A DNA stretch of 32,417 nt. It comes from Clostridiales bacterium GWF2_38_85 (lineage in GTDB: Bacteria; Bacillota; Clostridia; Oscillospirales; CAG-382). The translations under genes were made by a program, and so were the position numbers. Shown one piece after another: positions 12,871-30,839 of this stretch. The notes below the pieces were generated by a model. It was not told the origin of the DNA, made no database searches, and worked only from the letters and a program-made list of their open reading frames with translations. The stretch's first letter is position 1. Each line of letters begins with the position of its first letter. Location: assembly GCA_001797275.1 (NCBI GenBank), contig MGOY01000015.1:1-32417 (forward strand), given 5' to 3'.

Positions 12871-13290
12871 TTAAATCTTCTCAAAAGCCACCTTAATCCG
12901 AAATGTTTGTGATTGTCTTGAATAAATCGATAAACCTCTAATCGATTTTCTTCGCGAAAAACGCCGCTGCTTTTTTTAAGAATTCGTTCTCCTTTTTAGC
13001 TTCATCAAGTTGTTTACGGAGCTTGCAGTTTTCTTCCATTAAATCATATTCTTCTTTTGTTTTTGGGTTTAATTGGCATTCTTCGCGGTAAAGGCTTACC
13101 CAATTTGATCTGCTTGCGTGGCATAGCCCATATTCACTGGCTAAACTTTTGATTGTTCATCCTTTTTCTAAGTGAAGTCGAACTATTCTTTCTTTGAATT
13201 ATTTTTCGTATTGTTGCATTTTTTCTTTCCTCTTTCCTTCTATAGTTATTATTCTACATTAGGTCAAGGTGTTATAACTTTATTATACCA
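12870..13290 (-). mobile_element. Truncated IS3-family element (left end, orfA, start of orfB)
   Basis: The element's left terminus is at 13290 (minus-strand TGGTATAATAAAGTTATAAC), followed by its promoter (TTGACC, 17 bases, TATAGA), orfA, and the first ~30 codons of orfB (RFIQDNHKHFGLRWLLRRFN). The rest of orfB and the right end are gone. The same terminus occurs at 32330 with the same following bases apart from a few changes, which fixes the boundary. The element interrupts one phage gene at 13290 and abuts a beheaded gp10-like gene at ~12870, so it likely mediated an adjacent deletion of phage DNA. Confidence 0.75.
12938..13219 (-). pseudogene. IS3-family transposase OrfA with two nonsense codons
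   Basis: From the ATG at 13219 the frame reads MQQYEK, TAA, FKERIVRLHLEKG, TGA, TIKSLASEYGLCHASRSNWV, then a leucine-zipper-like helix with EENCKLRKQLDEAKKENEFL and KKAAAFFAKKID before a TAG at 12938. This is a helix-turn-helix OrfA of 93 codons with stops at codons 7 and 21. The copy at 32399 begins MQQYEK followed by a codon starting with G, consistent with GAA to TAA here. The element is dead. Confidence 0.75.
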
Positions 13291-13755
13291 CAACAACTCA
13301 AGCTTTGTATTGGGTGACACAAGTGAACGATACCTGCGGAGCAGTATGCCTTTTTCATTAATAAAGCTGAATGAAGCGCTTGATACCGGACTGTCTTTTG
13401 AATAAGTAATATTACCCTCATTAAACGTCCTGGATATATCTGTTGGTAACATATACATAACAAAACGGTGGTCACTGCCACCGTTTGTTTCGCTCTCTGC
13501 GCTCCAGAACCCGTATACTCCGTAATGAGATACCTTCTTAAGGCTCGGGCAAGACACCCCGTCATCCGGAGACAACCGCTTTTTCTCTTTCCATACCAAT
13601 GAATCATACAATCCATATGACGGAGCAACTGAACGTCCTTTGGACCATGCTGAATCATCAGTATATATAATGGTAAAGGAATTATCCATCATATGTACCG
13701 CTTGCGGTGAACAGCCTTCTCCGACTTCGGATGTGTATTCGAATTCGAGTATCAT
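13291..13755 (-). pseudogene. Phage tail/baseplate protein truncated by IS insertion
   Basis: About 155 residues beginning MILEFEYTSEVGEG remain, with DDGVSCPSLKKVSHYGVYGF and DSPVSSASFSFINEKGILLR. The latter resembles beta-rich segments of baseplate or tail-endopeptidase proteins (V-S-S-A-S-x-x-x-x-N-x-x-x-x-L). GAGG lies upstream of the ATG at 13755 with a suitable gap. The coding sequence ends at the IS terminus at 13290, and the last ~9 residues of the frame are IS-encoded. If it is a baseplate protein it should lie downstream of the tape measure, so its position upstream of the head-tail gene points to rearrangement. Confidence 0.5.
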
Positions 13756-13925: not shown

Positions 13926-14089
13926 GCAATTGAGTTCAAATAAACTTTTAAAAATTATAAATATTTAATTAACCTAAATAATAAATTAAATAGATTTTAT
14001 ATTATATAATGAAATAACTTATATATTAGACAACATTCGATTAAATATAATATTATTATTTATCACCACCATATTAACATATTTGAACG

Positions 14090-14455
14090 TGTGATATTGA
14101 AGCATTACACAAAATTGGTTACAACACACGAGAAATTGGAAAGAAAATTGGATGTCATCGTTCGGCTATTGCAAGTGAATACATCATAGAAAACACGATA
14201 ATAGTTATTATTTGAATCAATATGGTCGCCTGAGGTAATATCTCACATTATAATCGTGGTAAAAGTCAGTTTTATAAACAATCTATTTATGGCAGTAAAG
14301 GAAAATTATCTTAAGGTCATTTAAAGGTACTTCGAAAAAATTGAAAAAGCCGAAAGCCTTCAAAACAAGGTACTTTTGTTCATAATATTTGTCGTTGTGA
14401 GCCGGATACAGTTATGTCAAGTCAAGGGAAAATCAACTAGCACCTCTGCTTTCTA
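14090..14455 (+). pseudogene. Heavily degraded IS30-family transposase
   Basis: In the otherwise gene-free 13.76-14.57 kb stretch, one frame reads DIEALHKIGYNTREIGKKIG followed by CHRSAIASE, the helix-turn-helix of IS30 transposases (L-x-x-x-G-x-S-x-R-x-I-A-x-x-L-G-x-x-x-S-T-I). About 250 bases later another frame reads EPDTVMSSQGK, resembling the W-E-x-D-T-V-x-S-S-R-G-K start of the DDE catalytic domain. Stops and frameshifts separate these pieces. The remaining 800 bases are very AT-rich with no other recognisable content. Confidence 0.5.
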
Positions 14456-14571: not shown

Positions 14572-17472
14572 ATGAATACACAAAATTTAAATTTGGATAT
14601 ATTAAAAGATGTTATACCAAAAATATCAAAAAATAAAAAACGTTTAATAATGCCTAATAGTCCCTTTGAAGGATATTATATAGAAATATATGGAACAGAT
14701 AATATTCAAACAGTTGATATTCATGGTAATGTTTATCTTCCATTAATAGATACAATAGTAAATATAATATATAAAGTAGTTGATATAAATAATGAAAATG
14801 TTTTTATAAAAGCGAATTTTAATACTGCAATATTAATTAAAGGAAGATTTAAACAAGAACAAGGAGATAACGAAACTCCAGAAGTATTACCGACTTTGAG
14901 AGAATGGAAAGGTGGCAAAGAAACATTTGTTCTTCAAAATTCTGCTACAATAGTTATAAACAATAAAATATTAAAAGAAAAAGCTGGTATGTTAACGGAA
15001 TTTTTTATAAAACTCTTAAATATAAAAATAAATGTAGAAGAACGAAAATCGAAGAAAGGGGATATTTGTTTAGATTTAAATAATGATAATCTTGAACTCG
15101 GTGATGAAGGTTATTACCTTAAAATAACTCCTAATAGAGTATTTATTAGTTCATCTAGTGTAAAAGGTATTTTATATGGTGGGATAACAGTTTTACAAAT
15201 TATGTATACAAGCGATGACAAACGCACTTTGCCTTCAGGTATTGCTCGTGATTATCCAAAATATTGTGTTCGTTCAATAATGCTGGATATCGCAAGAGCA
15301 TGGATACCATTACAATATCTTGTCGATATTACAAAATATATGGCATATTTCAAGCTAAATAATTTGCATCTTCATATTAATGATTGGGGTGGTAATGGGT
15401 ATGAAGCATTCAGATTAGAGAGCGATTTCGAGGGCTTAGCTGCAGATGATGGTTATTATACAAAAGATGAATACAGAGCTTATCAGAAACTTGCATTAAA
15501 ATATAACATCGAAATTGTAACAGAAATTGATACTCCTGCACATAGTAAGTGCTTTAAAAAAATTAATCCAGTGCTTCCAATGATAAACGATACTCTTTTA
15601 GATATTAGAAAGCCTGAAATACTTGAATTTACAAAAAAATTAATTGATGAATATATTACCGGTGAAGATCCTGTTTTTACAACTCGCATTTTTGATATTG
15701 GTACTGATGAATTTCCTCGTGAATATTCAAAAGAAATGCGTGTTTATTGTGATGAATTGATACGATATATAAACGAAAAGGGTGGAAGGGCACAATTATG
15801 GGCATCATTTGGCGGTATTGACGGATATAACGGTGATACAGCAGTTTGCGGTAAAGCTAGAGCAAGTTACGCTGCTCCCGGTATGCAGGATTATGAAGTC
15901 CTTTTAAAATACGGATTTGATGTTATTAATGCTATTATGTTTCCGTTATATATTGTACCTGGTGGGAATTGGAACTTTGCTGATTATCTTGATTATGAAT
16001 GTGTATATAAATCATGGGAAGCAAATTGGTTTGATTCACAAGGCGAAATTAAAGCTTTACTTGGCGATCCACAATTTATCGGTGCTAAGGTCTGCTTATG
16101 GAATGACTTATATAATATGAACAGTGGTTTTTCAATATTTGATATATTTGACAGATTAAAAGGAGGAATTGTTTTAATATCCGAAAAAACATGGAGTGGT
16201 GAAAAAAGGAACGATCAATCATCAATCAAATTCGTACAAAAGGTTAGACAGTTTTGGAATTGTGCTCCAAGTGTTAATCCAGGAAGATGTGTTCAATCCA
16301 ATACAGAATTAATTTGTTCATATAATTTTACATATTGCAAAAACGGATTAATTACTGATCTATCTGAAAATGGATATGATGCAACTGCAATAAATACAAA
16401 GCAGATGCCGAATTCAATAATTCTCGATAAATCAGGATATATTTCACTACCATTTAATAGCATAGGCTTTCCTTATACTATATCAATTGATATGAAAATA
16501 AATATTGAACCAGGAATTAATGCTCTGCTTTTTAGTAGTATTGATGGCAAATTTTTTATTAATATAGATGGATCAAGTAAGTGTGGATTTAAACGAGAAA
16601 AATATTGCTTCATTTTTGATTGTGAGTTACCAATAAGTCAGATTTTTAATTTTAAGCTGAGTTGCAGCCAACGTGAAATAAAACTAATAATAAATGATGC
16701 TTATGTATATGATGCTATAAATCAATTACCACATACCAGAGAAGACTCATCAACATTTGTTTTACCTGTTGAAAAAATCGGGGTTGGACTAAATATTGAA
16801 TTAATTAAATTAAAAATATTAAATAAATATATGTCATATGATAATTTATTGGCAAATCAAAATTATGCACTTTTTTGTAAAGCAGAAGCATCAAGTTATC
16901 TTACTAATGACGGAAGATTTACTGCAGAAAAGGCTGTTGATGGAGTTGTAAACCGTGATAATCAACTTCAATTTTCCAAAGGGCATAATCAATGGTTGAG
17001 ACTTGATCTTGATCAAATAAGAGATATTAATAAATTTATAATAACATTTTCAGAGCATATACCTGAATATAAAATTTATATTTCATTGACCGGTGAAGAA
17101 GAAGATTGGCATGAAATATACCATCTTGCTGATGGGCTCCAAGGAGTAGAAACTACTGATATAATCGATATACCTTTATCAAAAGCAAGATATATAAAAT
17201 ATGAGCAGATAAGTATGTGGTATGTTGAATCACTCAAAGATTTCTACAGTGGTGGAATCGAAGAATTTGAAGTTTATGGATTCGTTTATGAATATTATTA
17301 TAATCTTATTAAACAAGCAGAAGAAAAGTTATTAATTATGGATAAAGAAGATTATATTTATATAAAAATTAATAAAATTAAAAATCAACTTGTAAAATAT
17401 CTTTTGAATAAAAGAATATATCAACGCATTCTTGATCAATTAACAGAAGCAATAATTGATTTTATAAAATAA
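14572..17472 (+). CDS. GH20 beta-N-acetylhexosaminidase-like enzyme with LamG and discoidin domains, no signal peptide
   Basis: A 966-residue glycoside hydrolase. Residues ~25-220 are a non-catalytic N-terminal region containing an Ig-like segment (GYYIEIYGTDNIQ) and the alpha/beta GH20b domain. The GH20 TIM barrel spans ~230-560: DIARAWIPLQYLVDITKYM, NNLHLHINDWGG, VTEIDTPAHS, and FDIGTDEFPREY with the catalytic Asp379-Glu380 pair of substrate-assisted retaining enzymes. The variant GTDE (not GGDE) is typical of the DspB/LnbB-like branch. A LamG-like sandwich follows (~605-765) and then an F5/8C discoidin domain (~765-905, with ASSYLTNDGRFTAEKAVDG). The likely reaction is release of terminal GlcNAc/GalNAc or an N-acetylhexosamine disaccharide. 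GGGAGAG precedes the ATG and no export signal is visible, unlike its paralogue at 23781. Confidence 0.85.
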   Translation: MNTQNLNLDILKDVIPKISKNKKRLIMPNSPFEGYYIEIYGTDNIQTVDIHGNVYLPLIDTIVNIIYKVVDINNENVFIKANFNTAILIKGRFKQEQGDNETPEVLPTLREWKGGKETFVLQNSATIVINNKILKEKAGMLTEFFIKLLNIKINVEERKSKKGDICLDLNNDNLELGDEGYYLKITPNRVFISSSSVKGILYGGITVLQIMYTSDDKRTLPSGIARDYPKYCVRSIMLDIARAWIPLQYLVDITKYMAYFKLNNLHLHINDWGGNGYEAFRLESDFEGLAADDGYYTKDEYRAYQKLALKYNIEIVTEIDTPAHSKCFKKINPVLPMINDTLLDIRKPEILEFTKKLIDEYITGEDPVFTTRIFDIGTDEFPREYSKEMRVYCDELIRYINEKGGRAQLWASFGGIDGYNGDTAVCGKARASYAAPGMQDYEVLLKYGFDVINAIMFPLYIVPGGNWNFADYLDYECVYKSWEANWFDSQGEIKALLGDPQFIGAKVCLWNDLYNMNSGFSIFDIFDRLKGGIVLISEKTWSGEKRNDQSSIKFVQKVRQFWNCAPSVNPGRCVQSNTELICSYNFTYCKNGLITDLSENGYDATAINTKQMPNSIILDKSGYISLPFNSIGFPYTISIDMKINIEPGINALLFSSIDGKFFINIDGSSKCGFKREKYCFIFDCELPISQIFNFKLSCSQREIKLIINDAYVYDAINQLPHTREDSSTFVLPVEKIGVGLNIELIKLKILNKYMSYDNLLANQNYALFCKAEASSYLTNDGRFTAEKAVDGVVNRDNQLQFSKGHNQWLRLDLDQIRDINKFIITFSEHIPEYKIYISLTGEEEDWHEIYHLADGLQGVETTDIIDIPLSKARYIKYEQISMWYVESLKDFYSGGIEEFEVYGFVYEYYYNLIKQAEEKLLIMDKEDYIYIKINKIKNQLVKYLLNKRIYQRILDQLTEAIIDFIK

Positions 17473-17491
17473 CAGAATTTGAGGTGGTAAA

Positions 17492-18919
17492 GTGTTTGTT
17501 GTAACAAAAAAATTATTTAAAATGTTAATTCCATTTTTATTAATATCAATATTATTAATATTTAATGCATGTTCAATTATTACTAATAAAAATAATAATT
17601 CTGATTTTATGATTGTTTCTCATATTGAATCGGCTGAAAGTATGACTTCCAAACCAAGCGGCGATTATCCTTATGTAACAGGCAGTTTCATTCAGCCATT
17701 TGCTTTAATGAATTTGAGTCAAGACCGTATAGCAATACATCTCAGCACACTTAAAGAAGTTGGTATTGATACAATTATTCTTCAGTGGTCAGCAATTACA
17801 CCTAACGGAATATTCCAAGATGTGTACTATCCATCAGAAAATTCTAAAACAAATCATACTGATAATTTTACTGCAAGTAATATTGCAATGATCGAAAACT
17901 TATTAAGTGCTGCAGAAAAACTTGGTATGAAGGTCTTTATTGGATTAAACAATGCAGATGAATGGTGGAATTTTGGTCCCACTAATAAGGCATGGAATGA
18001 AAAGCAAGCAGAAACAGGGCTTATTATAGCTCAAGAAATTTATGATTTGTATAAAATAAAATATCCAAATGCTTTACATGGTTGGTATTATGTTTGGGAA
18101 ATGTCAAATGGAAACATAATTAAATGGCCACAAGCTAATGGCGAATTGCTTAATCTATATCTCAATGGATTAACAAAGATCGACAGTTCTATGCCGATGA
18201 TGCTTTCTCCGTTCATTTGTGAAGTTGATGGAAGTGCAGAACAAACAGGAAACAAACTAAAAGAAATGCTTGAAGTTGCAAATTTTAGAAATGGTGATAT
18301 ATATTGTAGTCAAGATTCTATCGGTGCTGGATATATGAGTATAGATAAATTAGATAAATATTTTTCAGCAATAAACGATGCAATAAAGAATGAAGTTGGG
18401 CTTCAATTCTGGGCAAATAATGAAAATTTCATTCAAGCTACTTGGTCTGCTGCTTCAATTGATCGATTTGTTGCGCAATTAAAAATTGCATCTAAATATG
18501 TTACAGGATATGTTACTTTTTCATATTCACATTATTATTCACCTGATTTCGCTTCAACCAGTATTTATCACGAGATATATAAAAAATATTATTTGACGGG
18601 GAATTTACCTATTATTGATTGTCCTAGTACACCTGAGATAGCTATTAATATTATTAATGGTCGTGATGCTATTGCTGTTTCTATGACAATAATGCAAAAT
18701 ACATATGGCATAAAAGCAGTAGAAATTTTTATTAATGATAAGTTAATAGATACTATAACAAATGATCATATTGAAAGTAATTCTGAAATAAAATTAAGTT
18801 CATATATAAATTTAAGTGACATTGAGAAAAACGAATCCATACAAATCACAGCGATTGCTTATGATTTGAATAAAAATAAATCTCAAATAGGAAAGACAGA
18901 ATATACAAAAATAAATTAA
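17492..18919 (+). CDS. DUF4434 lipoprotein (putative TIM-barrel glycosidase-like), copy 1
   Basis: A 475-residue lipoprotein. The N-terminus has a basic start, a long hydrophobic stretch (MLIPFLLISILLIF) and the lipobox FNAC, with Cys as the acylation site. The body matches the DUF4434 family of glycosidase-like TIM barrels: GSFIQPFALMNLSQDRIAIH, VGIDTIILQWSAITPNGIF, a YYPS turn, LGMKVFIGLN, HGWYYVWEMSN, IYCSQDSIGAGYM and LQFWANNENF. Acidic residues at the ends of strands (WE, QD, NENF) suit a hydrolase site, but the activity is not established. The C-terminal ~100 residues look like an Ig-like domain (EIFINDKLIDTI, IQITAIAYDLNKNKS). GTG start, with GAGGTGG four bases upstream, 20 bases after the GH20 gene. 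Confidence 0.8.
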   Translation: MFVVTKKLFKMLIPFLLISILLIFNACSIITNKNNNSDFMIVSHIESAESMTSKPSGDYPYVTGSFIQPFALMNLSQDRIAIHLSTLKEVGIDTIILQWSAITPNGIFQDVYYPSENSKTNHTDNFTASNIAMIENLLSAAEKLGMKVFIGLNNADEWWNFGPTNKAWNEKQAETGLIIAQEIYDLYKIKYPNALHGWYYVWEMSNGNIIKWPQANGELLNLYLNGLTKIDSSMPMMLSPFICEVDGSAEQTGNKLKEMLEVANFRNGDIYCSQDSIGAGYMSIDKLDKYFSAINDAIKNEVGLQFWANNENFIQATWSAASIDRFVAQLKIASKYVTGYVTFSYSHYYSPDFASTSIYHEIYKKYYLTGNLPIIDCPSTPEIAINIINGRDAIAVSMTIMQNTYGIKAVEIFINDKLIDTITNDHIESNSEIKLSSYINLSDIEKNESIQITAIAYDLNKNKSQIGKTEYTKIN

Positions 18920-20352
18920 TGAGGATATCAACAATTATGTTATATCAAAATTATAAGTATTTAAATAATAAAAAGTATATGCTAATTTTTATTATATTAA
19001 TAATATGTTTTATATTTTTTTACAGTTGCGGTATTTTTGATAAAATAATTAGTAATGATTTATCAATAGAGCAAAGCAACAATATTATATCAGATGTGAA
19101 AAAAAAGGATTTTGCGATTGTTTCAGTAACTACACTCAGTAGTGAAAGTATTACTAATTTTTCCCGCGATAAGATGGAAACTTATATTCTAAATTTAATT
19201 GATGTAGGGATTGATACAATAATCTTATCAGAAACAGCAACAACACCATATGGTAATTTTAGCAATATATATTATCCATCCATAATGGCTGAATCTAACA
19301 AGCGAAGTGATTTTATATCAAATAAAGATGTAGTTGAAAATTTACTCTATACTGCTGAAAAGTTAAATATAAAAGTGTTTATTGGGCTTAATAATGCTCC
19401 TGAATGGTCAATCATACATGCGTCAAACAGTATATGGAACAGTACTCAATCAGAAATTGCTGCTAAAATGGCAACTGAACTTACTTCACTTTATAAAGCA
19501 AAATATCCAAACGCATTTTATGGATGGTATATACCTTGGATTATGTCAAATTCATATATTGTTTATCAACCGGAGCATAGTGCCGAACTGTTAAACCTGT
19601 ATATGGAAGCGTTACATAAGGTAGACTCAACGATACCTGTACTCTTTTCTACATTGCTCGAAAACAATTTCCCAGCAACAAAAACTGCTGAGGTATTTAA
19701 CACTATTCTACAGTCAGTAAAATTCAGTAATGGAGATATTTATTGTTGTATTGATGCTCTTGGAACTGGGACAATGCGTATTGATAGTCTTGATTATTAT
19801 TATAAAAAAATAGCTGAGATTATAAAAGCGAAGTCTGAGTTATCATTTTGGACTGGCTGTGAGACTTTTAATTATAGTAGTGGTAAGGGTACAGCGCTGG
19901 ACTGCTATGTTAATAAATTAAAAATTGCAAAAAAATATTCAGATATAATAGTCGCATATAGTTATACAAAATATTATGCACCTATAACCGGTGCAATTCC
20001 CTCAATTCACTTTTTATATAAAGATTATTATGAAACAGGAAATGTAGCAAAAACGATTGCCCCGGACATGCCAAAAATAAGTACAACGAAAATAAATGGT
20101 CAAAATGCAATATCTGTTATAATCAATTCTTATCAGCAAACATATTGTATTGATAAGATTGAACTTTATATGAATGATGAACTTATTAAAGTATTTAACA
20201 ATACAACTCGACTTTTATCATTCACAGAGTATAAAGTCAGTTATTTTTTAAGTCTCGATAATTTAAAAGATGGCTCTAAAATAATATTTAAAGCGATAGC
20301 ATATGATATTGCTGGCAATGAATCACAAATTGGTATATATAAATATACTTAG
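18919..20352 (+). CDS. DUF4434 lipoprotein, copy 2
   Basis: A 477-residue paralogue of the preceding gene, starting at TAATG, where the stop and start share one base, so translation is coupled. The N-terminus has a hydrophobic core (MLIFIILIICFIFF) and a lipobox-like YSC. The same landmarks recur in order: VGIDTIILSETATTPYGNF, YYPS, LNIKVFIGLNNAPEW, YGWYIPWIMSN, IYCCIDALGTGTM, LSFWTGCETF, and an Ig-like C-terminal domain (IELYMNDELIKVF, IIFKAIAYDIAGNES). Where copy 1 has WEMSN and QDSIG, copy 2 has WIMSN and IDALG. The possible catalytic Glu (WE) is replaced by Ile, while the final Glu (GCETF) remains, so copy 2 may bind rather than cleave. Confidence 0.8.
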   Translation: MRISTIMLYQNYKYLNNKKYMLIFIILIICFIFFYSCGIFDKIISNDLSIEQSNNIISDVKKKDFAIVSVTTLSSESITNFSRDKMETYILNLIDVGIDTIILSETATTPYGNFSNIYYPSIMAESNKRSDFISNKDVVENLLYTAEKLNIKVFIGLNNAPEWSIIHASNSIWNSTQSEIAAKMATELTSLYKAKYPNAFYGWYIPWIMSNSYIVYQPEHSAELLNLYMEALHKVDSTIPVLFSTLLENNFPATKTAEVFNTILQSVKFSNGDIYCCIDALGTGTMRIDSLDYYYKKIAEIIKAKSELSFWTGCETFNYSSGKGTALDCYVNKLKIAKKYSDIIVAYSYTKYYAPITGAIPSIHFLYKDYYETGNVAKTIAPDMPKISTTKINGQNAISVIINSYQQTYCIDKIELYMNDELIKVFNNTTRLLSFTEYKVSYFLSLDNLKDGSKIIFKAIAYDIAGNESQIGIYKYT

Positions 20353-20474
20353 TAAAACTATTATTGATAATATTAACAACAGATCAATTTAAACAAATAC
20401 ATAGCATTGATAAATTTTCATGGAAGAAATGGTTTCTACATTAAATTATATTTAAAATAAAGGAGTTTAATCAA

Positions 20475-21962
20475 ATGAAAAAAAAATCAAATCTATTCGC
20501 AGGGGTATTAATTTTTTCTATTTTATTTTTTCTAACAACAGCTTGTGTAGATAAAGACACAGAATCTGAAAATAATAATTCAACATCCAGTGAAGCCAGT
20601 GATTCGCTTTCTTTCCTGCCTGATGTTAATTATAACGAAGAAGAAATTATATTTCTTTGTGAAAATGATGGAACATGTAAGGCGATCTACGCCGAAGAAC
20701 TTGATAGTACCCTGATTAATGATTCAGTTTATCAAAGAAACAATATAGTCCAGGAGAAGTTGGGAGTTGTTATTAAATCATATTATGGTGACACTACAAT
20801 TACATGCCTTGATATGCTTAGAAATAGTATAAATAGTGGTTTAGATGAGTATGACATCGTCATGCCATATATGCCTGCAGCTGCAACCATGGCACTTGAT
20901 CAAAACTTATATGATCTTAATGAGATACCGGAACTTAATCTATCAGCACCATATTGGGATCAAAACGCTAATGAAGGTTTATCTATCGGTGGCAAGTTAT
21001 ATTTTACTGTTGGTGCAATGACCTATTCAGACAAGTCATTAACACTCACATATATCTTTAACAAGGATGTTGTTGAAGAAAAAAATCTTGAGAATCCATA
21101 TATACTTGTAAAAGAAGGAAAGTGGACGATAGATAAAATGATTGAACTTGCTAAACAAGTTACAGATGACAGTGATGGCAACGGTGTAATGAACTATAAA
21201 GATACATGGGGACTATTTATGAATACAAGCTGTGCAAGTGTTTATTACCTTGCAGCAGGCGAAAAACTTACATCAAAAGATAAATACGATTTACCTTTGA
21301 TTTCAGTTTATACGAAACGTGGTGTTGAAGTATTTAATAAAATATTTGAAGTGTATACTGATTCTACAGCAACAATTAAAATAGAAGGGTTTCATAGTGA
21401 TGCTATAGCAGCAGGCTATTCTACATGTTATGAAGCTGCAAATATCGCATTTGTAGAAAAACGTGCACTTTTTAAAACAATGAACCTTTCTGATTTAACT
21501 CCACTTGGCGAATATGAAGTAAACTTTGGTATTCTTCCTTACCCCAAATTTGATGAACAACAAACAAATTATTTTTCTCCTGTTAGCCTTTTCTATGTTA
21601 CACCCGTATGTATTCCGATTTCAAATAAAGAACCGGCAAAAGCAGCATATGTTATTGAAGCAATGAGTGCTGCATCTGTCGACACTGTTGAGAAGAGCTA
21701 TTATGATGTACTTTTAAAATTGAGACAAATTCAAGATGCAGAATCCAAAGAAATGCTTGATATCATATTTGCCAACAGAGTTTATGATCTGTCTATGATA
21801 TATAACTGGGGTGGGAATGATATGTTTGATCCAAATGGTGTATTTTGGTTTATGAATCAAATAGCTGATAGTGGCGTAAATACTTTTGCATCAACTTATG
21901 AATCACTTAAAGCTGCTATGGATAAAGGAGTAAGCGATACAATAGCAGCATTTTATTCTTGA
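20475..21962 (+). CDS. Extracellular solute-binding lipoprotein (sugar ABC transporter type)
   Basis: A 495-residue lipoprotein with a basic N-terminus, hydrophobic core and lipobox TTAC, then a Ser/Glu/Asn-rich linker. The body is a family-1-type solute-binding protein of the divergent Clostridia kind: EYDIVMPYMPAAATMALDQ, PYWDQNANEGLSIGGKLYF (the common solvent-cleft motif), TYIFNKDVVEEK, GKWTIDKMIELAKQVT, DGNGVMNYKDTWGLF, and INSNKEP-like ISNKEPAKAAYVIEAMS near the end. It would bind the oligosaccharide released by the surface enzymes and hand it to permeases. AAAGGAG lies nine bases before the ATG. No permease genes follow; an IS110 relic occupies the expected place. Confidence 0.85.
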   Translation: MKKKSNLFAGVLIFSILFFLTTACVDKDTESENNNSTSSEASDSLSFLPDVNYNEEEIIFLCENDGTCKAIYAEELDSTLINDSVYQRNNIVQEKLGVVIKSYYGDTTITCLDMLRNSINSGLDEYDIVMPYMPAAATMALDQNLYDLNEIPELNLSAPYWDQNANEGLSIGGKLYFTVGAMTYSDKSLTLTYIFNKDVVEEKNLENPYILVKEGKWTIDKMIELAKQVTDDSDGNGVMNYKDTWGLFMNTSCASVYYLAAGEKLTSKDKYDLPLISVYTKRGVEVFNKIFEVYTDSTATIKIEGFHSDAIAAGYSTCYEAANIAFVEKRALFKTMNLSDLTPLGEYEVNFGILPYPKFDEQQTNYFSPVSLFYVTPVCIPISNKEPAKAAYVIEAMSAASVDTVEKSYYDVLLKLRQIQDAESKEMLDIIFANRVYDLSMIYNWGGNDMFDPNGVFWFMNQIADSGVNTFASTYESLKAAMDKGVSDTIAAFYS

Positions 21963-22004
21963 ACATTATTATTTTAATAATGAAAATAAAAAAGGAGTAT
22001 TAGC

Positions 22005-22043
22005 TTGAAAGAAGCAACAAACATCACCATAAAAAAGGCATAA
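22005..22043 (+). pseudogene. First codons of a lost downstream gene
   Basis: AAGGAG precedes a TTG start encoding MKEATNITIKKA and then a stop, where IS110-type DNA begins (about 22040). A gene start with a strong ribosome binding site 40 bases after a solute-binding protein gene is what an ABC permease gene would look like, but only 12 codons survive, so this identification is inference from position. Confidence 0.35.
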
Positions 22044-22103
22044 GAAAATAGCCCTGCAATTAAGAAAATTTTGCAGAGTTAAAAGAAAAATCAGAAGTGG
22101 AAT

Positions 22104-22753
22104 CTAAGCGACAGTCAAACCTTGCTTTTCAAGGAATCTTGTAGCTTGCTTCACAGCTATAGACAATTGCTTTTCCTTGAGCATTTCCGGCAGATCAACC
22201 TTGTAAAGGTCGGACGGATTCCAAACCTCTCCGGTAAAAATCATTTGGTAAATTGCAGTGAGAATCATTCGGGCAATAGCAATAATTGGGTAAGGGTGTT
22301 TTGAAATCGGTTTTTCTCACTGCTTTTCATAGAAACCAACTTGTAACGGTAGCGTGTAAACTCCCGAAGAATGCGAATTTCTTTTGATGGAATAAAGCTG
22401 CCGGGAACAAGTCCCAAACGGAACAGGTCGCCAATCCATTTAGAATCCTTGGTATCGTCCTTGTTGCCTTTTACAGCTTTGACCCATTTAGGGTTGGCAA
22501 TTGTCACACGGAGGCCGCGTTCCTCAAGAATGTTGAATACAGGCACCCAATACATTCCAGTAGATTCCATACAAACATCAAGACAGGTATTCATATGAAG
22601 CCAATCTGCGAAGTTGCGAAGGTCACTGTTGTAAGTCGAAAAGCGTTTCTTTTGGTAGCAGGGTTGAACACCATCCGTAGTAGAAATAATAGTTCCCACT
22701 AAAAAGGTTTTATGGACATCCACATCACAGCATACTTGATAAACAACTTTCAA
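22104..22753 (-). pseudogene. IS110-family transposase with large internal deletion
   Basis: The N-terminal RuvC-like DEDD domain is present: VCCDVDVHKTFLVG (first Asp), CMESTGMYWVPVFNIL (Glu), NPKWVKAVKGNKDDTKDSKW (the Asp pair). It runs to NRFQNTLT, where homologues continue for about 200 residues. Here the sequence jumps, out of frame, to IIAIARMILTAIYQMIFTGE and QATRFLEKQGLTVA, the C-terminal end of the same protein. The stop is at 22104. The C-terminal Tnp domain with the catalytic Ser is therefore missing. The TTG start at 22753 is favoured by AAAGGAAG seven bases upstream. A deleted, non-autonomous copy. Confidence 0.8.
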
Positions 22754-23040
22754 TTGTTTTCTTCCTTTAAAAAAATGTGAGTAAGAAGGTAGTGACTGAA
22801 TCATCGCACAATTTAACAGGTGCTAAAACAATTCTTAGTGTACGTGCTTAAAAGCAACACTTATTTGTGCTTGAACAGATGATTCCAACACTGATTGAAA
22901 TACTGTTTTTTGCGAGAAAGTGCATCTACGACTCCTCCTACCATGCGTTGTAGTGTACCTTCCTTCTCAGTAATAATTATATATAATAAAATTCGCTTGT
23001 CAGCACTCTTTCATTACTATTTGTGCTGACGCGTAAGCGG
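22754..23040. other. Non-coding DNA beside the IS110 relic
   Basis: No gene is visible here. In IS110-family elements the bridge RNA that pairs donor and target DNA is encoded in the non-coding end upstream of the transposase, which is this side. The stretch is about the right length to contain it, but I could not identify its two loops. It also contains the 5' region of the next operon. Confidence 0.35.
22994..23039 (+). promoter_or_regulatory. Hairpin upstream of the discoidin-GH20-ROK operon
   Basis: GTCAGCAC (22999-23006) pairs perfectly with GTGCTGAC (23023-23030). An outer CGCTT/AAGCG pair extends the stem across a four-base bulge. It ends only 18 bases before the ATG at 23057 and has no T-run. 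It could be an operator (for example for the ROK regulator) or an IS110 end structure. Confidence 0.4.
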
Positions 23041-23056
23041 TAGAATGGAGATTAAT

Positions 23057-23794
23057 ATGAAAAAATTTGCGAACACATTATTTATTATATTGTTATCTAT
23101 TTGTTTAATAACAATAGGAATCGGAGCGGAAGCAACAGAAGATATTGTTGATAAGGTAGCTGTTTCAATCGGGAAAACATACATATCAACAGGTACTCCA
23201 AGTATTGAGGCTGATGCAACTTACGGAGACTCAGGTAGTGAGATGACAGATGGTGTTGTAGGAGATGATACAAATGGTTCATCTTGGACTGCATACCAGG
23301 GCGAGCCAGCAGAAATTGTTATAGACTTAGAAAAAAGCATTGACAATCTTGTACAGTTTGATTATAATATTTATGTGTGGAAAGCAGCTGGTTTGAATGG
23401 TCCCCAAGATTTCACTATATATGTATCTGAAGATAATATAACTTGGACAAGTATTAATACCAATAATTATACTGATATTGATAACAATGATGTAGTTATT
23501 ACTCCTATATCAATAACACTTTCTGAAGGTGTTACAGCAAGATATATAAAGTTAGCGATAAACAGCCCTGTTTCGTGGACATGTATTGATGAAGTTACTG
23601 TATATCAAGCTTCAGACTCATCGGTAGCTATAGAATCTACTACTTCCACTACCAGTGAGAATGTTATTTCAGATATAAGTGACGCAATAACTCCTACTAC
23701 AGGCGATAATATTATTATATATTCGTCTATAATAATTACTTTATTATTAAGTTCTATTGTTGTAATATATAAAAATAAAAATGAAAAAAGCTAG
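23057..23794 (+). CDS. Secreted discoidin-domain surface protein with C-terminal anchor
   Basis: A 245-residue exported protein. The N-terminal signal (KKFANTLFIILLSICLITIG) is followed by one F5/8C discoidin domain (~residues 30-195): DATYGDSGSEMTDGVVGDDT, SSWTAYQGEPAEIVIDLEKS, DFTIYVSEDNITWTSI and ARYIKLAINSP. A Ser/Thr-rich spacer leads to TPTTGDN, a hydrophobic helix (YSSIIITLLLSSIVVIY) and the basic tail KNKNEK, the layout of a sortase signal although not the LPxTG consensus. The domain probably binds a sugar. The ATG at 23057 has GGAG six bases upstream. Its 3' end overlaps the next gene by 14 bases. Confidence 0.8.
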   Translation: MKKFANTLFIILLSICLITIGIGAEATEDIVDKVAVSIGKTYISTGTPSIEADATYGDSGSEMTDGVVGDDTNGSSWTAYQGEPAEIVIDLEKSIDNLVQFDYNIYVWKAAGLNGPQDFTIYVSEDNITWTSINTNNYTDIDNNDVVITPISITLSEGVTARYIKLAINSPVSWTCIDEVTVYQASDSSVAIESTTSTTSENVISDISDAITPTTGDNIIIYSSIIITLLLSSIVVIYKNKNEKS

Positions 23795-26339
23795 AATAAT
23801 ATCTATTTTTATTTTAATAAACCTATTAATATTAATATTCCCGGTGAGCAGCGTTAGCGCTGCTTCACCGAGCTTAGGTGATTTAGAAAAGACTCCCCCT
23901 ACTATATCAGCAGAGGGAGACAAATTGGTAATGCCAGAAAGCCCACTAAGCGGGTACAAAATTAAACTATTTGGCTCCGATAATTTACAAACTGTGGATT
24001 TAGAGGGCAATATACATACTCCGCTTATTGATACTGTAGTAAATTTAATCTATAAAGCTGTTTCCATTATTGATCCTGATGAATATATTGTTGGTAACTT
24101 CAATGTTAATATTTTAATTAAAGGGCAGTACATTAAAAATGTTGAAGATAATACAGAGCCAATTGTTCTTCCATCACTCCGTGAATGGAAAGGTACACAA
24201 GGCAAAATTTCTTTAGCAGAAACAAGTCGAATTGTTGTGAATAGTTATAAATTGATTGATAAAGCAAAAATACTACATGATAATATTAAAGATATGCTCG
24301 GACTTAACTTGAAAATAATTATTGATGAACCTAATGATAATGATATATATTTATCTCTTACAGACAAAAACCCTGAGTTGGGGAACGAAGGATATTATCT
24401 TGAAGTAGGGAAATATGTTTCTGTTAATGCTTATTCATTAAATGGTATTAGTTATGGTGGAATAAGCCTTATTCAGATTGCATATCAAAGCGAAAGTAAA
24501 TGCGCGTTACCATGTGGAATTGCGAGAGATTATCCTAAATATATAGTTCGCAGTGCACATTTAGATGTTGCACGGGCTTGGATCAATATGGATTATCTTT
24601 CAGAAATAACAAAATATTGTGCATGGTATAAAATCAACGATTTACATTTACATATCAATGATTGGGGTGGCAATGGTTATGAAGCATTCAGACTGGAGAA
24701 CAATTTTAAAGGATTAGCTGCTGATGATGGATATTATACGAAAGATGAATATCGTGAATTTCAAAAAATAGCATTAACATTAGGGATAAATATTGTTACT
24801 GAAATAGATACACCAGCACATGCGACTAGTTTTCAACGAATCATGCCTGAAATTCCAATATTAAGTTGGAGTTATCTTGATATTACATCTCCCCAAACTC
24901 TCGCTTCTATAAAGCAATTACTTGATGAATATCTTGATGGAGATGATCCTGTTTTTGCTTCACATTATGTTGATATTGGAACAGATGAATTTCCAAGAGA
25001 ATATGGTGAATATATGAGAGTGTATATTGCAGAATTACTCAAATATATCAGAAGCAAAGAATTTACTCCAAGATTGTGGGCATTATTTGGTGGAGATGAT
25101 AGTTATGATGGTAACACTACTGTAAAAGGTTATGCTCAGGCATCGTACGCTGTTCCATTAATGCAGGATTCACAGACTTTAATGGATTATGGGTATGATA
25201 TCATTAATGCTATTCAATTACTTTACATTGTCCCGGGTGGGCCTTTCGGTTATGCAGATTATATGGATATAAAATATTTATATAATCATTGGGAAGCAAA
25301 TTACTATTCATACGACGGGGCTTCCAAAGAATTACTCGGCCACCCACAATTTGCTGGCGCAATGTTTTGTTTGTGGAATGATTTATATACCACAAACAGT
25401 GGTTTCTCTATTTTTGATATTTTTAATCGTTTTAAAGATGGTGTAATGTTAATTAGCGAAAAAACTTGGTATGGTGAAAAACGAAGTGATCAAACTGCAG
25501 ATGATTTTACTAAAAAAATCGAAGTGCTTAGTAAAAAGGTACCATTAGTAAATCCTTCTCGGTTAATCGATTCAAAAAATGATATTATTATCGATGTTAA
25601 TTTTGAGAACTGCATAACAGATAATTCTGAAAATGCTTATAATATAAATTTAATCAATACTGAATTAGAATCACAAAATGATAATACCTATTTAAAGTTT
25701 AACGGTAACGGATATATATCCTTACCGTTTGATAGCGTAGGCTTCCCTTATACTATTTCATTCGACTTGTATTTAAATGGAATTCCAGCTCCGGATACAA
25801 CATTATTTGATGGGAAAGATGGTACACTTTATTTAAACATTGACAATACCCGTAAAATAGGATTTCGAAGAGGTATATATACATTTATATATGATTTTTC
25901 GTTACCAGTTGGTCAATGGTATAATATAAAATTAACCTGTGATAGTAAAGATACTATATTAATTGCAAATAATAAATATAAATTTATTGCTAATAATCAA
26001 AAGTATTCAAATGAGAGTAACTCAACGACATTTGTATTACCTGTTGAACAAATAGGAAAAGGATTTATTGGAGCTATTGATAACATATTAATTTTAAAAA
26101 CAAACACTGATACATCATTATATGATTTAAATTATAATATTGATAATACTTCTCAAATAGATAACCAAACGAAAAATGTAGAAAGTATAATAATATCAAA
26201 GTCAGATGAGTTGTCAAGGTCATTAATTAAAAAACCAAAAAATAATGAGAATGTAATTACATTTATCTTGATAGTAATAACATTAATTATTTTTATTATA
26301 ATTCATATCAAAAAAAGAAAAAATGATAGGGGCGCTTAA
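23781..26339 (+). CDS. Secreted, membrane-anchored GH20 beta-N-acetylhexosaminidase-like enzyme
   Basis: An 852-residue paralogue of the enzyme at 14572, here with a clear signal peptide (IISIFILINLLILIFPVSSV, then SAAS). The same Ig-like region (GYKIKLFGSDNLQ) and GH20b domain are followed by the GH20 barrel (~250-575): DVARAWINMDYLSEITKYCA, NDLHLHINDWGG, VTEIDTPAHA, and VDIGTDEFPREY with the catalytic Asp402-Glu403 pair. A LamG-like domain (~600-770) follows. The C-terminus is a membrane helix (VITFILIVITLIIFIIIHI) with the basic tail KKRKN instead of the discoidin domain of the other copy. It would act on the cell surface on N-acetylhexosamine-capped glycans. It has no separate ribosome binding site and overlaps both neighbours, so it depends on translational coupling. 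Confidence 0.88.
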   Translation: MKKARIISIFILINLLILIFPVSSVSAASPSLGDLEKTPPTISAEGDKLVMPESPLSGYKIKLFGSDNLQTVDLEGNIHTPLIDTVVNLIYKAVSIIDPDEYIVGNFNVNILIKGQYIKNVEDNTEPIVLPSLREWKGTQGKISLAETSRIVVNSYKLIDKAKILHDNIKDMLGLNLKIIIDEPNDNDIYLSLTDKNPELGNEGYYLEVGKYVSVNAYSLNGISYGGISLIQIAYQSESKCALPCGIARDYPKYIVRSAHLDVARAWINMDYLSEITKYCAWYKINDLHLHINDWGGNGYEAFRLENNFKGLAADDGYYTKDEYREFQKIALTLGINIVTEIDTPAHATSFQRIMPEIPILSWSYLDITSPQTLASIKQLLDEYLDGDDPVFASHYVDIGTDEFPREYGEYMRVYIAELLKYIRSKEFTPRLWALFGGDDSYDGNTTVKGYAQASYAVPLMQDSQTLMDYGYDIINAIQLLYIVPGGPFGYADYMDIKYLYNHWEANYYSYDGASKELLGHPQFAGAMFCLWNDLYTTNSGFSIFDIFNRFKDGVMLISEKTWYGEKRSDQTADDFTKKIEVLSKKVPLVNPSRLIDSKNDIIIDVNFENCITDNSENAYNINLINTELESQNDNTYLKFNGNGYISLPFDSVGFPYTISFDLYLNGIPAPDTTLFDGKDGTLYLNIDNTRKIGFRRGIYTFIYDFSLPVGQWYNIKLTCDSKDTILIANNKYKFIANNQKYSNESNSTTFVLPVEQIGKGFIGAIDNILILKTNTDTSLYDLNYNIDNTSQIDNQTKNVESIIISKSDELSRSLIKKPKNNENVITFILIVITLIIFIIIHIKKRKNDRGA

Positions 26340-27645
26340 TATTTTATACCTTACAGACAATTGTTTTTTAAAAGAAAAAAGAACAAAATATGTTATTCAA
26401 CAAGATACTAAAGATAAGCATTTAAAAGATATTTTCCTTTATATATTAAAAAATGGTACAGCGACAAGAGCAACACTTGCAAAAACATTAAGAATTAGTG
26501 CGCCAGCTGTTTCTTCACTAGTTGACGAGGAAATAAAAATGGGTCTCCTTAATGAATATATTGAAGGCAAAAATTATAATGTAGGACGTCCTCCTGTTAC
26601 TCTTAAAGTGAATAATAGTGTTATAAATATTCCTGTCATAATATTTAAACGTTCAGGATTTAAATTCACTTTATATGATTTAAGCTTTAATGAACTTGAA
26701 ACATTTTTCGTACCATATATATCTGATTTTACTGATGGAATAAATTATGATGAAAACATTGTTACTCCACCCAAATTAATACCAACTAATATCGTGGTAG
26801 ATTCGATCATTGATATTTTAGATAAACGTTCAAAAATATTCGTAAAATCTAAAATGAATGCACTTATTATTTCATTCCCTGGAAATATATGCGAAGGCAG
26901 TAAATTTTTTGTTTCGATTCCTATGCGTGCTCAAATTTCTTATGATGTACTTGAAAAATTACAGAAATATTATGATAATAAACCATTATTATTTGGTAAT
27001 GATTCATTATTTTATGCGTACGCTGAACGAAACTTTAATAATACTTCATTAAAAGATAATAAACAGGATGATTTGATTTTTATTAATATTAACATTGGTA
27101 TTGGCGCAGGAATAATATATAATGGAGAATTGGTTACTGATTTAATTACATCAGAAATAGGGCACATAACAATTAATTATAATGGTGTACAATGTCAATG
27201 TGGAAGTCGTGGATGCCTTGAACGCTATATAAATATTAATATTTTAATTAATGAAGTAAAAAATGAAATAAAAAATGGTCGTGACAGCGAAGTAATTCGC
27301 CTAGTTAATTATAATATAAATGCATTAAGCTTGAATGAATTACGTTTAGCATATGAGAACAATGACGAACTTGTATGTGAAATAATAAAAAAAGCAGCAG
27401 AGCAACTTGCATTTGGGATTAGTAATATGGTTTCTATTTTTACAATTAAGAACATAATAATAGGTGGTGGAATAGAAACTTTAGGTAATAAATTTTTAGA
27501 AACGGTTATTGCTAAAAGCAAAGTTGTTGGATTACGTCAATTAATGAATGATATACATATATCATATCCCCAAAAAGGTGTTAATGGTGAAAGCATAGGC
27601 GCTATCAGGTATTATATTGAAAAGTATTTAAAAATCGATAATTAA
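26323..27645 (+). CDS. ROK-family transcriptional regulator
   Basis: A 440-residue NagC/Mlc/XylR-type regulator. A winged helix-turn-helix (~residues 33-85: NGTATRATLAKTLRISAPAV) with the wing motif NVGRPPVTLKV binds DNA. The ROK sugar-binding domain follows, with FGNDSLFYAYAE, NINIGIGAGIIYNGEL and the zinc/ROK signature EIGHITINYNGVQCQCGSRG (His281, Cys291, Cys293, Cys298). The kinase ATP loop (DxGxT) is absent from the expected place, so it is a regulator, not a kinase. The start overlaps the GH20 gene by 17 bases, placing it in the same operon, where it probably represses the locus until the sugar product accumulates. Confidence 0.9.
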   Translation: MIGALNILYLTDNCFLKEKRTKYVIQQDTKDKHLKDIFLYILKNGTATRATLAKTLRISAPAVSSLVDEEIKMGLLNEYIEGKNYNVGRPPVTLKVNNSVINIPVIIFKRSGFKFTLYDLSFNELETFFVPYISDFTDGINYDENIVTPPKLIPTNIVVDSIIDILDKRSKIFVKSKMNALIISFPGNICEGSKFFVSIPMRAQISYDVLEKLQKYYDNKPLLFGNDSLFYAYAERNFNNTSLKDNKQDDLIFININIGIGAGIIYNGELVTDLITSEIGHITINYNGVQCQCGSRGCLERYININILINEVKNEIKNGRDSEVIRLVNYNINALSLNELRLAYENNDELVCEIIKKAAEQLAFGISNMVSIFTIKNIIIGGGIETLGNKFLETVIAKSKVVGLRQLMNDIHISYPQKGVNGESIGAIRYYIEKYLKIDN

Positions 27646-28591: not shown

Positions 28592-29447
28592 ACGCTGCGC
28601 AATGAAGTTCCATGGGTGTCATACAACGCAATCGTTTTTGGTAACGGCGTGTATTATAGAAAGAAATATAATTTTCGATGGCGGTTGTCAACTCCTCTAC
28701 GGAAGTGAATTTACGCAGATAGTACATTTCGGATTTCAGAATACCCCAATAACCTTCCATAGGACCGTTGTCTATATAATGTCCGACTCGTGACATACTC
28801 TGCCGCATTTTTGCTGCTTCAAGTTTTGAATGAAATGTTTTACTTGTGTACTGGTAGCCACGGTCACTGTGAAACAGCGGATGTGCGTCCGGATTGGCAG
28901 CAACCGCATCATCAAATGTATCAAAAGCAAGCTGATTGTTGTTGCTTGAGCCTATCCTGTATGCAACGATTCGTCTATCATACAGGTCAAGGATCGCGCT
29001 CAAATACAGCTTTTTTACTTCAACTCCGACATAATATTTGAATTCTGTAACATCTGTCAGCCATTTTTCATTCGGTCTGTCTGCATGAAATTCTCGGTTC
29101 AGAATATTTTCTGCGGTTACCTCTGGCGTTGACCGAATATATGTGTATCGCTTTTTTCGGCATACGGATTTAAGATGAAGAATATTCATAAGACGATATA
29201 TCCGTTTGTGATTGTATTGTACATTATGCCCACGGTTCAGTGCAATTGTCATCTGACGATATCCGAGAATACCATCCTGTTCCTCGTAAAGCTCCTTAAT
29301 CCATTCAACAATCTGTTCATTCAACAACTGACTTTGGATTGGTGCTCTCTTTAACCATTTGTAGTAAGCGGAACGATTCAAATGTATTAATCGACAAAGT
29401 TTCTTAATAGGATATTGTTCTGTATCGTGAAGATATTTTACCGCCAT
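28590..29447 (-). CDS. IS3-family transposase OrfB (N-terminus lost)
   Basis: A 285-residue OrfB with an HTH_21-like region (KKLCRLIHLNRSAYYKWLKR, EEQDGILGYRQMTIALNRGH) and the rve DDE domain. The catalytic residues are visible: NEKWLTDVTEF (first Asp), LFHSDRGYQYTSKTFHSKLE (second Asp), and PMEGYWGILKSEMYY (Glu), ending YQKRLRCMTPMEL. The catalytic core is complete. In intact elements OrfB is made by frameshifting from OrfA, which is missing. The ATG at 29447 is internal sequence at the junction and lacks a ribosome binding site, so expression is doubtful. Confidence 0.8.
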   Translation of the reverse strand: MAVKYLHDTEQYPIKKLCRLIHLNRSAYYKWLKRAPIQSQLLNEQIVEWIKELYEEQDGILGYRQMTIALNRGHNVQYNHKRIYRLMNILHLKSVCRKKRYTYIRSTPEVTAENILNREFHADRPNEKWLTDVTEFKYYVGVEVKKLYLSAILDLYDRRIVAYRIGSSNNNQLAFDTFDDAVAANPDAHPLFHSDRGYQYTSKTFHSKLEAAKMRQSMSRVGHYIDNGPMEGYWGILKSEMYYLRKFTSVEELTTAIENYISFYNTRRYQKRLRCMTPMELHCAA

Positions 29448-30504
29448 ATCGGTTGTTGCAGTACCAGTAAAATCTTCTTTGCGTTCCGGAGTGCGCCGAT
29501 TTCAACCCGTACAAACCGCCACAATCACCGCATATTATTTTTGATGATAGTACAGAGGAGCAACTATAGCGAAGTCCATATTCACTCCGTCTTTTTTGGA
29601 GCAGTTCCTGCGTATAATCAAAAGTTGCTCTTGGTATGATGGCATCGTGACCATCTGTCACATAATATTTTGGGAGCTCTCCCACATTGACTTTTTCCTT
29701 CTTGGTGAGGAAATCAACAACATAGCGTTTTTGTAGAAGCGCGTCACCTTTGTATTTTTCGTTTATAAGAATGCTTATTACGACAGTTTGACTCCATTTG
29801 TTCTTACCAGACGGCGTTGCAATCTCTGCGTTATCAAGATAATGGACGATGGCAATCATGGACTTCCCTTCAAGGAATAGTTTGAAAATGAGCCGAATTA
29901 TGTCTGCTTGCATCTCATTTACCACAAACCCTCCGTTGATGCCACGGTCGTAGCCAAGAAAATTTTTGAATGGAACAGAGTATTTTCCGTCTGCAAATTT
30001 CTTTTGTATGCCCCAAGCTACATTCTCCGATATGGATTGGCTTTCGTCCTGTGCCATACTCGAAAGCAGAGTAAGCATAAACTCACTCTTTGAGTCAAAT
30101 GTCCACAAATCCTCTTTTTCAAAGTAAACCTCGGTCCCAATTTCTTTTAACCTACGTATGTATGTTAAAGAATCTACCGTATTTCGTGCAAAGCGGGATA
30201 TGGACTTTGTAATAATTAAATTGAATTTATGTAATTCTGCATCTGCCATCATCTTATTGAAGCCATCACGATTTTTATGTGACGTTCCGCTTATGCCTTC
30301 ATCAGAATAAAGACCACAAAATTCCCATTCAGATTGGGCAGCTACCAGTTTCGTGTAGTAATCCTTTTGAGCTTCTACACTATTCAACTGCTCATTGCTT
30401 GACGTGGATACTCTGGCATATATTGCAACTTTACGGTAAGTCGGGAGTATTTTGTGTATATCAAGTGTTTTCGGATATGTAGTAATCTTTCGTATTGTCT
30501 TCAT
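29404..30504 (-). CDS. Serine recombinase, C-terminus replaced by IS3 fragment
   Basis: A 366-residue truncated large serine recombinase. The resolvase catalytic domain (~residues 25-165) has VAIYARVSTSSNEQ with the nucleophilic Ser, DEGISGTSHKNRDGFNKMM, and ITKSISRFARNTVDSLTYIR with the active-site Arg. The recombinase domain follows (LGYDRGINGGFVVNEMQADI, ATPSGKNKWSQTVVISILIN), then the zinc ribbon (ICGDCGGLYGLK ... FYWYCNN). After CNNRY the reading frame enters IS3 DNA in the wrong frame and ends. The second half of the zinc ribbon and the coiled coil are missing, so it is probably inactive. ATG at 30504; only a weak ribosome binding site. It closely follows a small companion ORF. Confidence 0.8.
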   Translation of the reverse strand: MKTIRKITTYPKTLDIHKILPTYRKVAIYARVSTSSNEQLNSVEAQKDYYTKLVAAQSEWEFCGLYSDEGISGTSHKNRDGFNKMMADAELHKFNLIITKSISRFARNTVDSLTYIRRLKEIGTEVYFEKEDLWTFDSKSEFMLTLLSSMAQDESQSISENVAWGIQKKFADGKYSVPFKNFLGYDRGINGGFVVNEMQADIIRLIFKLFLEGKSMIAIVHYLDNAEIATPSGKNKWSQTVVISILINEKYKGDALLQKRYVVDFLTKKEKVNVGELPKYYVTDGHDAIIPRATFDYTQELLQKRRSEYGLRYSCSSVLSSKIICGDCGGLYGLKSAHSGTQRRFYWYCNNRYGGKISSRYRTISY

Positions 30505-30508
30505 TGCA

Positions 30509-30706: not shown

Positions 30707-30839
30707 TCTAAATCGATAAAAAGTAAAGTCTATTTTTGCTTTTTTTCTATAATATTAGTTTTTGATTGCATACTGCGTAGAACGATTCATACCTGCGCAG
30801 AACTTTTCCTCTGCCAAAATGCACCCTGTATTAAAGTTA

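Follow-up and report, generated by a model that had tools for sequence, protein, structure and literature searches.

A seven-gene cluster with paired GH20 and DUF4434 proteins, predicted to process an amino-sugar glycan, in Clostridiales bacterium GWF2_38_85

Gene cluster and proposed function

The contig MGOY01000015.1 of Clostridiales bacterium GWF2_38_85 (genome G000, 2.83 Mb, 96% complete; contig G000:C15) was analysed over its whole length of 32,417 bases, hereafter the window. Seven open reading frames (ORFs) on its + strand, at 14572-27645, encode two GH20 proteins, two DUF4434 proteins, a solute-binding protein (SBP), an F5/8C (discoidin) protein and a ROK regulator, and here it is proposed, with confidence slightly above even, that they form a two-compartment operon for an oligosaccharide or glycoconjugate capped by beta-linked N-acetylglucosamine (GlcNAc) or N-acetylgalactosamine (GalNAc). 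The ORFs and their Pfam matches confirm the seven same-strand genes and families named in an earlier note on this DNA, whose sugar-type SBP, anchored discoidin protein and ROK regulator are also supported, and the same order is found in the sister genome G001 (record JAQWDK01, 'Eubacteriales bacterium isolate STF2_5'), the sole further member of the genus in the set of 60 genomes searched, own included. The proposal joins gene order and its conservation in that one other genome, domains, catalytic residues and secretion or anchoring signals, all read from the sequence, with activities, a substrate, a shared use of permeases and a mode of regulation that we infer. The cluster genes and the element lying between them are:

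14572..17472, + strand: GH20-1, 966 amino acids (aa), Pfam GH20 and GH20b, with a C-terminal F5/8C domain and a tail
17492..18919, + strand: DUF4434-1, 475 aa, Pfam DUF4434, lipoprotein-like N-terminus
18919..20352, + strand: DUF4434-2, 477 aa, Pfam DUF4434, lipoprotein-like paralog of DUF4434-1
20475..21962, + strand: SBP, 495 aa, sugar-type solute-binding lipoprotein, class assigned through its ortholog and paralogs
22265..22804, - strand: IS110 transposase fragment, 179 aa against an NCBIfam model length of 343
23045..23794, + strand: F5/8C (discoidin) protein, 249 aa, Pfam F5/8C, with a leader and a TPTTG-type sorting signal
23781..26339, + strand: GH20-2, 852 aa, Pfam GH20 and GH20b, exported and membrane-anchored
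26323..27645, + strand: ROK regulator, 440 aa, Pfam ROK

The seven genes are spaced, in order, by 19 bp, a 1-bp overlap, 122 bp, 1082 bp, a 14-bp overlap and a 17-bp overlap, the 1082-bp gap between the SBP and F5/8C genes holding the IS110 fragment on the - strand, which splits the window's copy of the cluster.

Outside the cell, the sortase-anchored F5/8C protein and the DUF4434-2 lipoprotein would hold the glycan, membrane-anchored GH20-2 would remove exposed N-acetylhexosamine (HexNAc), and DUF4434-1, as a GH-A-like retaining glycosidase (E203/E311), would cleave a neighbouring linkage. The SBP lipoprotein would then capture the fragments for a sugar ATP-binding cassette (ABC) permease encoded elsewhere; inside, the leaderless GH20-1 would remove HexNAc from the imported fragments, and the ROK protein would derepress the operon on binding sugar.

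Gram-positive glycan-utilisation loci combine glycosidases with an ABC transporter and a regulator of the ROK or LacI type. The window's cluster is like them in having glycosidases, an SBP and a sugar-responsive regulator in one operon, and unlike them in having no permease, in its DUF4434 pair and in lying among mobile DNA. The system type is known and the combination of genes new; fresh in it, as described below, are the pairing of a probable DUF4434 enzyme with a pseudo-enzyme, the GH20 without a leader and the family of orphan SBPs. The cluster also offers a testable setting for DUF4434, both for the linkage freed by GH20 trimming and for the role of the copy that lacks a glutamate at strand 4.

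GH20 enzymes

Both GH20 proteins match the Pfam GH20 and GH20b models (75.8 and 73.4 bits for GH20-1, 73.4 and 67.1 bits for GH20-2; cut-offs 22.3 and 26.1) and share 49-52% identity. Among solved structures, both come closest to Am2136 of Akkermansia muciniphila (PDB 6jqf and 7ezt; E-values 1e-69 for GH20-2 and 8e-60 for GH20-1), with whose D412-E413 the catalytic Asp-Glu pairs D379-E380 (GH20-1) and D402-E403 (GH20-2) align. Both are predicted from sequence to be beta-N-acetylhexosaminidase-like, and the two GH20s with their Asp-Glu pairs support the amino-sugar glycan locus that the earlier note had suggested. In the Am2136 study (PMC9673926), the enzyme is a generalist beta-GlcNAcase that releases GlcNAc from beta1,2, beta1,3 and beta1,6 substrates and is active on mucin and mucin-type oligosaccharides; the activity of its D412A+E413A mutant was not measurable, and Y415A keeps about half of kcat/Km.

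The likeness extends to the architecture of Am2136, with an Ig-like domain I, GH20b domain II and GH20 domain III in the same order and, for GH20-2, a galectin-like domain IV. Domains I-III are collinear at 38-592 of GH20-2, followed by a weak second stretch at 652-767 (9.6 bits) that corresponds to domain IV, and they are matched at 15-550 of GH20-1, whose domain IV is not matched directly (-1.0 bits) and was reached solely via the GH20-2 alignment. The window differs from Am2136 in having a GH20 pair, one of them leaderless, in the extra F5/8C domain and tail of GH20-1, and in a Pro aligned with Y415 in both enzymes.

The same comparison does not support the placement of these enzymes in a DspB/LnbB-like branch, as had been suggested earlier: Am2136 is far closer for both than the best lacto-N-biosidase matches (7e-24 and 2e-28), and dispersin is not named in any of the 48 rows of the solved-structure match list. 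A lacto-N-biosidase-type locus, with lacto-N-biose released by the GH20s and taken up through the SBP, would agree with the lacto-N-biosidases 4h04 and 8hvb ranking next after Am2136, but given how much weaker these matches are, and with lacto-N-biose phosphorylase not among the Pfam families found in the window, it is very improbable.

GH20-2 begins with a leader and ends with a membrane anchor. In GH20-1 of both G000 and G001 there is no leader, N-terminal hydrophobic stretch or anchor, and an in-frame stop stands three codons upstream of the start in both species. Among the complete distinct GH20 homologs of the fetched loci, 74/78 carry an N-terminal hydrophobic stretch; one of the four exceptions looks like a miscalled start and one like a sub-threshold leader (ORF starts being mechanical). 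By its sequence GH20-1 may be cytosolic. A third GH20 of G000 (contig C32) reads as leader, F5/8C-like region, domains I-IV, second F5/8C-like region, tail and anchor, and GH20-1 resembles such a protein without the leader, the first F5/8C-like region and the anchor.

DUF4434 proteins

The DUF4434 proteins match PF14488 with 163.1 bits (DUF4434-1) and 112.7 bits (DUF4434-2; cut-off 30), share 39% identity and have lipobox-like N-termini in both species, that of DUF4434-2 in G001 being assigned by eye (the pattern matched a later site). An AlphaFold2 model of DUF4434-1 (predicted local distance difference test score, pLDDT, 73.5; predicted template modelling score, pTM, 0.68; five sequences) consists of an alpha/beta barrel and a C-terminal beta domain. 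Foldseek placed PDB 4h41 first (E 3e-14), followed by GH157, GH158, Agn1p, Cwp19, GH2 and GH5 proteins. VIA-align gave Z 25.9 for 4h41 (282 residues, 3.0 Å) and Z 19.5 for Cwp19 (265 residues, 3.6 Å), then GH42 at 18.5, GH5 at 17.9, beta-amylase at 17.8 and GH164 at 17.6, rows within Z 1 being counted as tied. In clan GH-A, strands 4 and 7 of the (beta/alpha)8 barrel each carry a Glu at their end. E203 and E311 occupy these two positions in the model, and DUF4434-1 is modelled as a GH-A-like barrel with E203 as the predicted acid/base and E311 as the predicted nucleophile.

The entry 4h41 is BT_0435 of Bacteroides thetaiotaomicron, a 'putative alpha-L-fucosidase', which shares with DUF4434-1 the DUF4434-type barrel and, by alignment, both glutamates. 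Identity over the structural alignments is 19-23%, and what the window has besides is a beta domain at the C-terminus, a tandem partner lacking the strand-4 Glu and the operon setting. The literature search found no paper on 4H41 with fucosidase, and the matches listed for BT0435 were unrelated.

The Cwp19 match bears on another explanation, in which the cluster trims the cell's own or its neighbours' wall polymers instead of a dietary or host glycan, the GH20s taking GlcNAc off muropeptides or wall decorations and DUF4434-1 cutting a wall strand. Cwp19, which we take to be a cell-wall enzyme of C. difficile with lytic activity, is the second-best VIA-align match, and by reading of the sequence several other DUF4434 genes of G000 adjoin housekeeping rather than glycan genes. 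However, its Z of 19.5 is tied with the GH42 enzymes, the SBP and ROK parts suit uptake rather than wall trimming, and Am2136 acts on mucin-type oligosaccharides (PMC9673926); wall trimming is unlikely.

The second copy is different at the predicted active site, with the strand-4 Glu replaced by Ile in G000 and by Val in G001. In a survey of 37 distinct DUF4434 homologs from the fetched loci (that of L053 included, one truncated at strand 4), the strand-4 Glu is kept in 33 of the 36 readable ones, being absent from DUF4434-2, its G001 ortholog and a distant protein of G056, and the strand-7 Glu in 36/37, the same G056 protein being without it. The ratio of nonsynonymous to synonymous substitution rates (dN/dS) of DUF4434-2 is the highest of the seven genes (0.23), and both species keep its ORF open and under constraint; as the evidence stands, its sequence points to a retained pseudo-enzyme, not a dying gene. 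The pair is probably an enzyme and a pseudo-enzyme, DUF4434-2 being a pseudo-enzyme or a binder. The earlier suggestion that the DUF4434 proteins are new surface glycosidases or binders holds as to their lipobox-like N-termini and the GH-A-like barrel; two new glycosidases are unlikely, because DUF4434-1 alone of the two keeps both expected glutamates. A wider reading is tentative and rather doubtful: DUF4434 would be a new GH-A-type retaining glycosidase family on amino-sugar glycans, with a non-catalytic twin, a GH20 pair split between surface and cytosol, a mobile cluster, and an SBP that uses a shared permease or serves as a permease-free glycan receptor.

PF14488 matches occur in 25 of the 60 genomes (20 over the cut-off) and at 11 places of the 2.8-Mb genome G000. 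The G000 locus L050 (G000:C8:121500-139285) encodes an 817-aa DUF4434 protein that reads as lying beside corrinoid-protein-like and uroporphyrinogen-decarboxylase-like ORFs, a neighbourhood that suggests another role for some DUF4434 proteins. The literature search found no paper under DUF4434 or its Pfam number.

Solute-binding protein, discoidin protein and regulator

The SBP itself has no Pfam match over the cut-off; its class follows from its G001 ortholog, with SBP_bac_8 at E 3e-4 (below the cut-off), and from two paralogs with SBP_bac_1 above the cut-off. Its N-terminus is lipobox-like in both species. Matches to the family number 15 in G000 and 20 in G001, compared with 10 and 14, respectively, for the permease model PF00528. 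At least ten members (10-26 copies) occur in 17 of the 60 genomes, all 17 of which have fewer than two permease matches per SBP member (weak permeases may be missed). None of the 14 listed G000 members (15 matched) has one of the 10 PF00528 matches within 5 kb; the nearest lies 5.1 kb from an SBP of contig C32, near a transporter that reads as having its own SBP. On contig C14, one locus combines two permease pairs, both weak matches, with another SBP and a DUF5696 protein; as a guess, these permeases serve the orphan SBPs. The excess of this SBP family over permeases, if it holds, questions the one-SBP-one-transporter reading in this group. Most copies with listed neighbourhoods read as standing among housekeeping-like genes, and at one locus (L188, G000:C32:172000-190000) two sortase genes directly adjoin an orphan SBP gene. 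Nothing was found in the literature on 'orphan solute-binding proteins'.

The F5/8C protein (40.7 bits; cut-off 28.2) has a leader and, in both species, a TPxTG tail, and two sortase matches are present in G000. The regulator has a ROK domain (109.5 bits; Pfam cut-off 22.9) and, before it, a putative winged helix, for which the MarR_2 (E 0.003) and HTH_24 (E 0.005) matches are weak and do not reach their cut-offs. The nearest NCBIfam models are Mlc (98.5 bits, cut-off 530) and NagC (96.9 bits, cut-off 650), and the protein does not reach the NagC equivalog cut-off.

Conservation and co-occurrence

In G001 the seven genes are kept in identical order and strand (7/7) with the largest gap at most 40 bp, and the IS110 ORF was not found in this copy of the cluster. 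Because the sister genome keeps the seven genes, their order and strand, the arrangement is more than chance. Best local amino acid identities are, in gene order, 67, 63, 61, 75, 52, 69 and 65%, and pairwise dN/dS is 0.08-0.23 over the seven genes at a dS of 1.4-2.5, near saturation; all seven sequences bear the signature of constrained divergence. This identity (52-75%) is comparable to that of other gene pairs of the two genomes (reciprocal best hits in the fetched loci), of which 14/21 fall at 56-91%; the other seven (35-49%) were left out as likely paralogs. Since the module resembles these other pairs, the analysis does not favour a recent joint acquisition. When an empty site was sought, the left flank in G001 proved to have G000 counterparts that are only 33-46% alike and of uncertain orthology.

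The earlier note also expected DUF4434 to co-occur with this GH20 clade, and by genome it loosely does: uncorrected for kinship, a PF14488 match is present in 14/17 of the 60 genomes with the GH20 (E 1e-20) against 11/43 without it, or 14/17 against 6/43 over the PF14488 cut-off. GH20 and DUF4434 loosely tend to share genomes, all 14 with both falling in the window's own family. In a wider set of GH20 genomes, several shared with the 60, 33/70 distinct genomes have a PF14488 match.

By locus, 97 GH20 loci were scanned with DUF4434 profiles, 18 around relatives' matches and 79 from a genome collection (several places duplicated); the latter derive from the best 80 of 422 relatives, a sampling that may overlook linkages that are rarer or more distant. 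Of the 95 loci outside G001, eleven are shorter than 10 kb. The first profile was too narrow and missed the known protein of L053; a wider one finds 9/9 in the own-genome stretches L045-L053, a weak control in that eight or nine of those proteins built the profiles. Strong DUF4434 matches were found in the two G001 loci. G001 also has a third GH20, separated from a DUF4434 gene by about 1.8 kb that contains other genes; the G000 counterparts are on separate contigs (C32 and C14), and this case was not counted.

Several points weigh against the proposed operon. With either profile, none of the 95 loci outside the genus has a convincing DUF4434 beside the GH20, and such linkage was rejected there on just two weak matches of the wide profile: a 1965-aa ORF of G058 (E 5e-8), a genome without a match to PF14488 itself, and an ORF fragment at one end of L063 (G010:C22; E 0.005), which is not a PF14488 place. 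The linkage of the cluster is that of one species pair, the gene set not having been seen outside the genus, and the IS110 fragment may have left the window's copy impaired. By Pfam, the families of the cluster include no permease, ATPase, deacetylase, deaminase or separate sugar kinase, and the ROK protein scores far too low for the NagC and Mlc cut-offs. The substrate is indicated by GH20 homology alone, and a cytosolic GH20 bearing an F5/8C domain is odd. The DUF4434-1 model is of moderate quality (pLDDT 73.5, five sequences), and it is also matched by beta-amylase and Agn1p/GH71, which we take to be outside clan GH-A.

Mobile and compositional setting

The module has a G+C content of 30.4%, against 33-42% in 16 other stretches of G000. 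At third positions its genes have 15-21% in G000 (median 32.5, minimum 20.0, over 136 mechanical ORFs) and 25-31% in G001 (median 40.2, minimum 22.7, over 85 ORFs). Around the cluster, the window contains:

1609-12669, - strand: prophage tail fibre, tape measure (split, two ORFs), major tail protein and tail terminator
12877..13304, strand not assigned: IS3-type fragment upstream of the cluster (type by reading), 75% identical in DNA to one upstream of the G001 locus
14070..14430, + strand: degenerate IS30-type transposase remnant just upstream of GH20-1, by DNA reading
28590-29447: IS3-type transposase downstream, labelled by reading
29404..32351, - strand: two serine recombinases downstream, by family matches

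Two inverted 84-nt arms, diverged and 79% complementary (13221-13304 and 32316-32399, about 19 kb apart), bracket the cluster and the recombinases, the left arm within the IS3-type fragment and the right arm at the contig end. In G001 the module occupies 57.4-69.3 kb of contig C6, and ORFs for tail fibre and tail proteins stand directly upstream of it. The same contig bears a tyrosine integrase (near 43 kb), a D12 methyltransferase (near 88 kb) and a group of VirB4-like, coupling and relaxase genes (about 99-109 kb); this copy may lie inside an integrated conjugative element. The mobile flanks differ between the two copies.

With an AT-rich composition relative to the genome in both species, phage, insertion sequence (IS) and recombinase genes around the cluster and DUF4434 not found beside this GH20 elsewhere, the seven genes might be passengers gathered by chance in mobile DNA, without a joint pathway. 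This is quite unlikely, since order, strand and tight spacing are kept across two species at 52-75% identity within different flanks and all seven genes are constrained, and the glycan operon remains the preferred reading. Phage or plasmid cargo was rejected: the viral_contigs search gave no confirmed relative of DUF4434, SBP or GH20, the plasmid search one distant DUF4434 match only, and a phage collection 19 'Bacteriophage sp.' records with distant GH20 matches. The five of these that were listed are unannotated fecal records of 4-28 kb, the best two matches being at 30-32% identity in records of about 4-5 kb, and these records may be bacterial DNA.

The leaderless GH20-1, the IS110 split and the flanking mobile-element genes are additions to the earlier note. 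Unrelated genes read as lying between the window's tail genes, one of them an adenosine-deaminase-like ORF at 4881-5840, and a ParB gene is also among the mobility genes of G001:C6 (L197, L198, L207, L208; about 43-131 kb). Promoter-like sites are not enriched (85 against 90.1 in shuffles), and terminator-like sites number 9 against 4.6 in shuffles, eight of the nine on the - strand.

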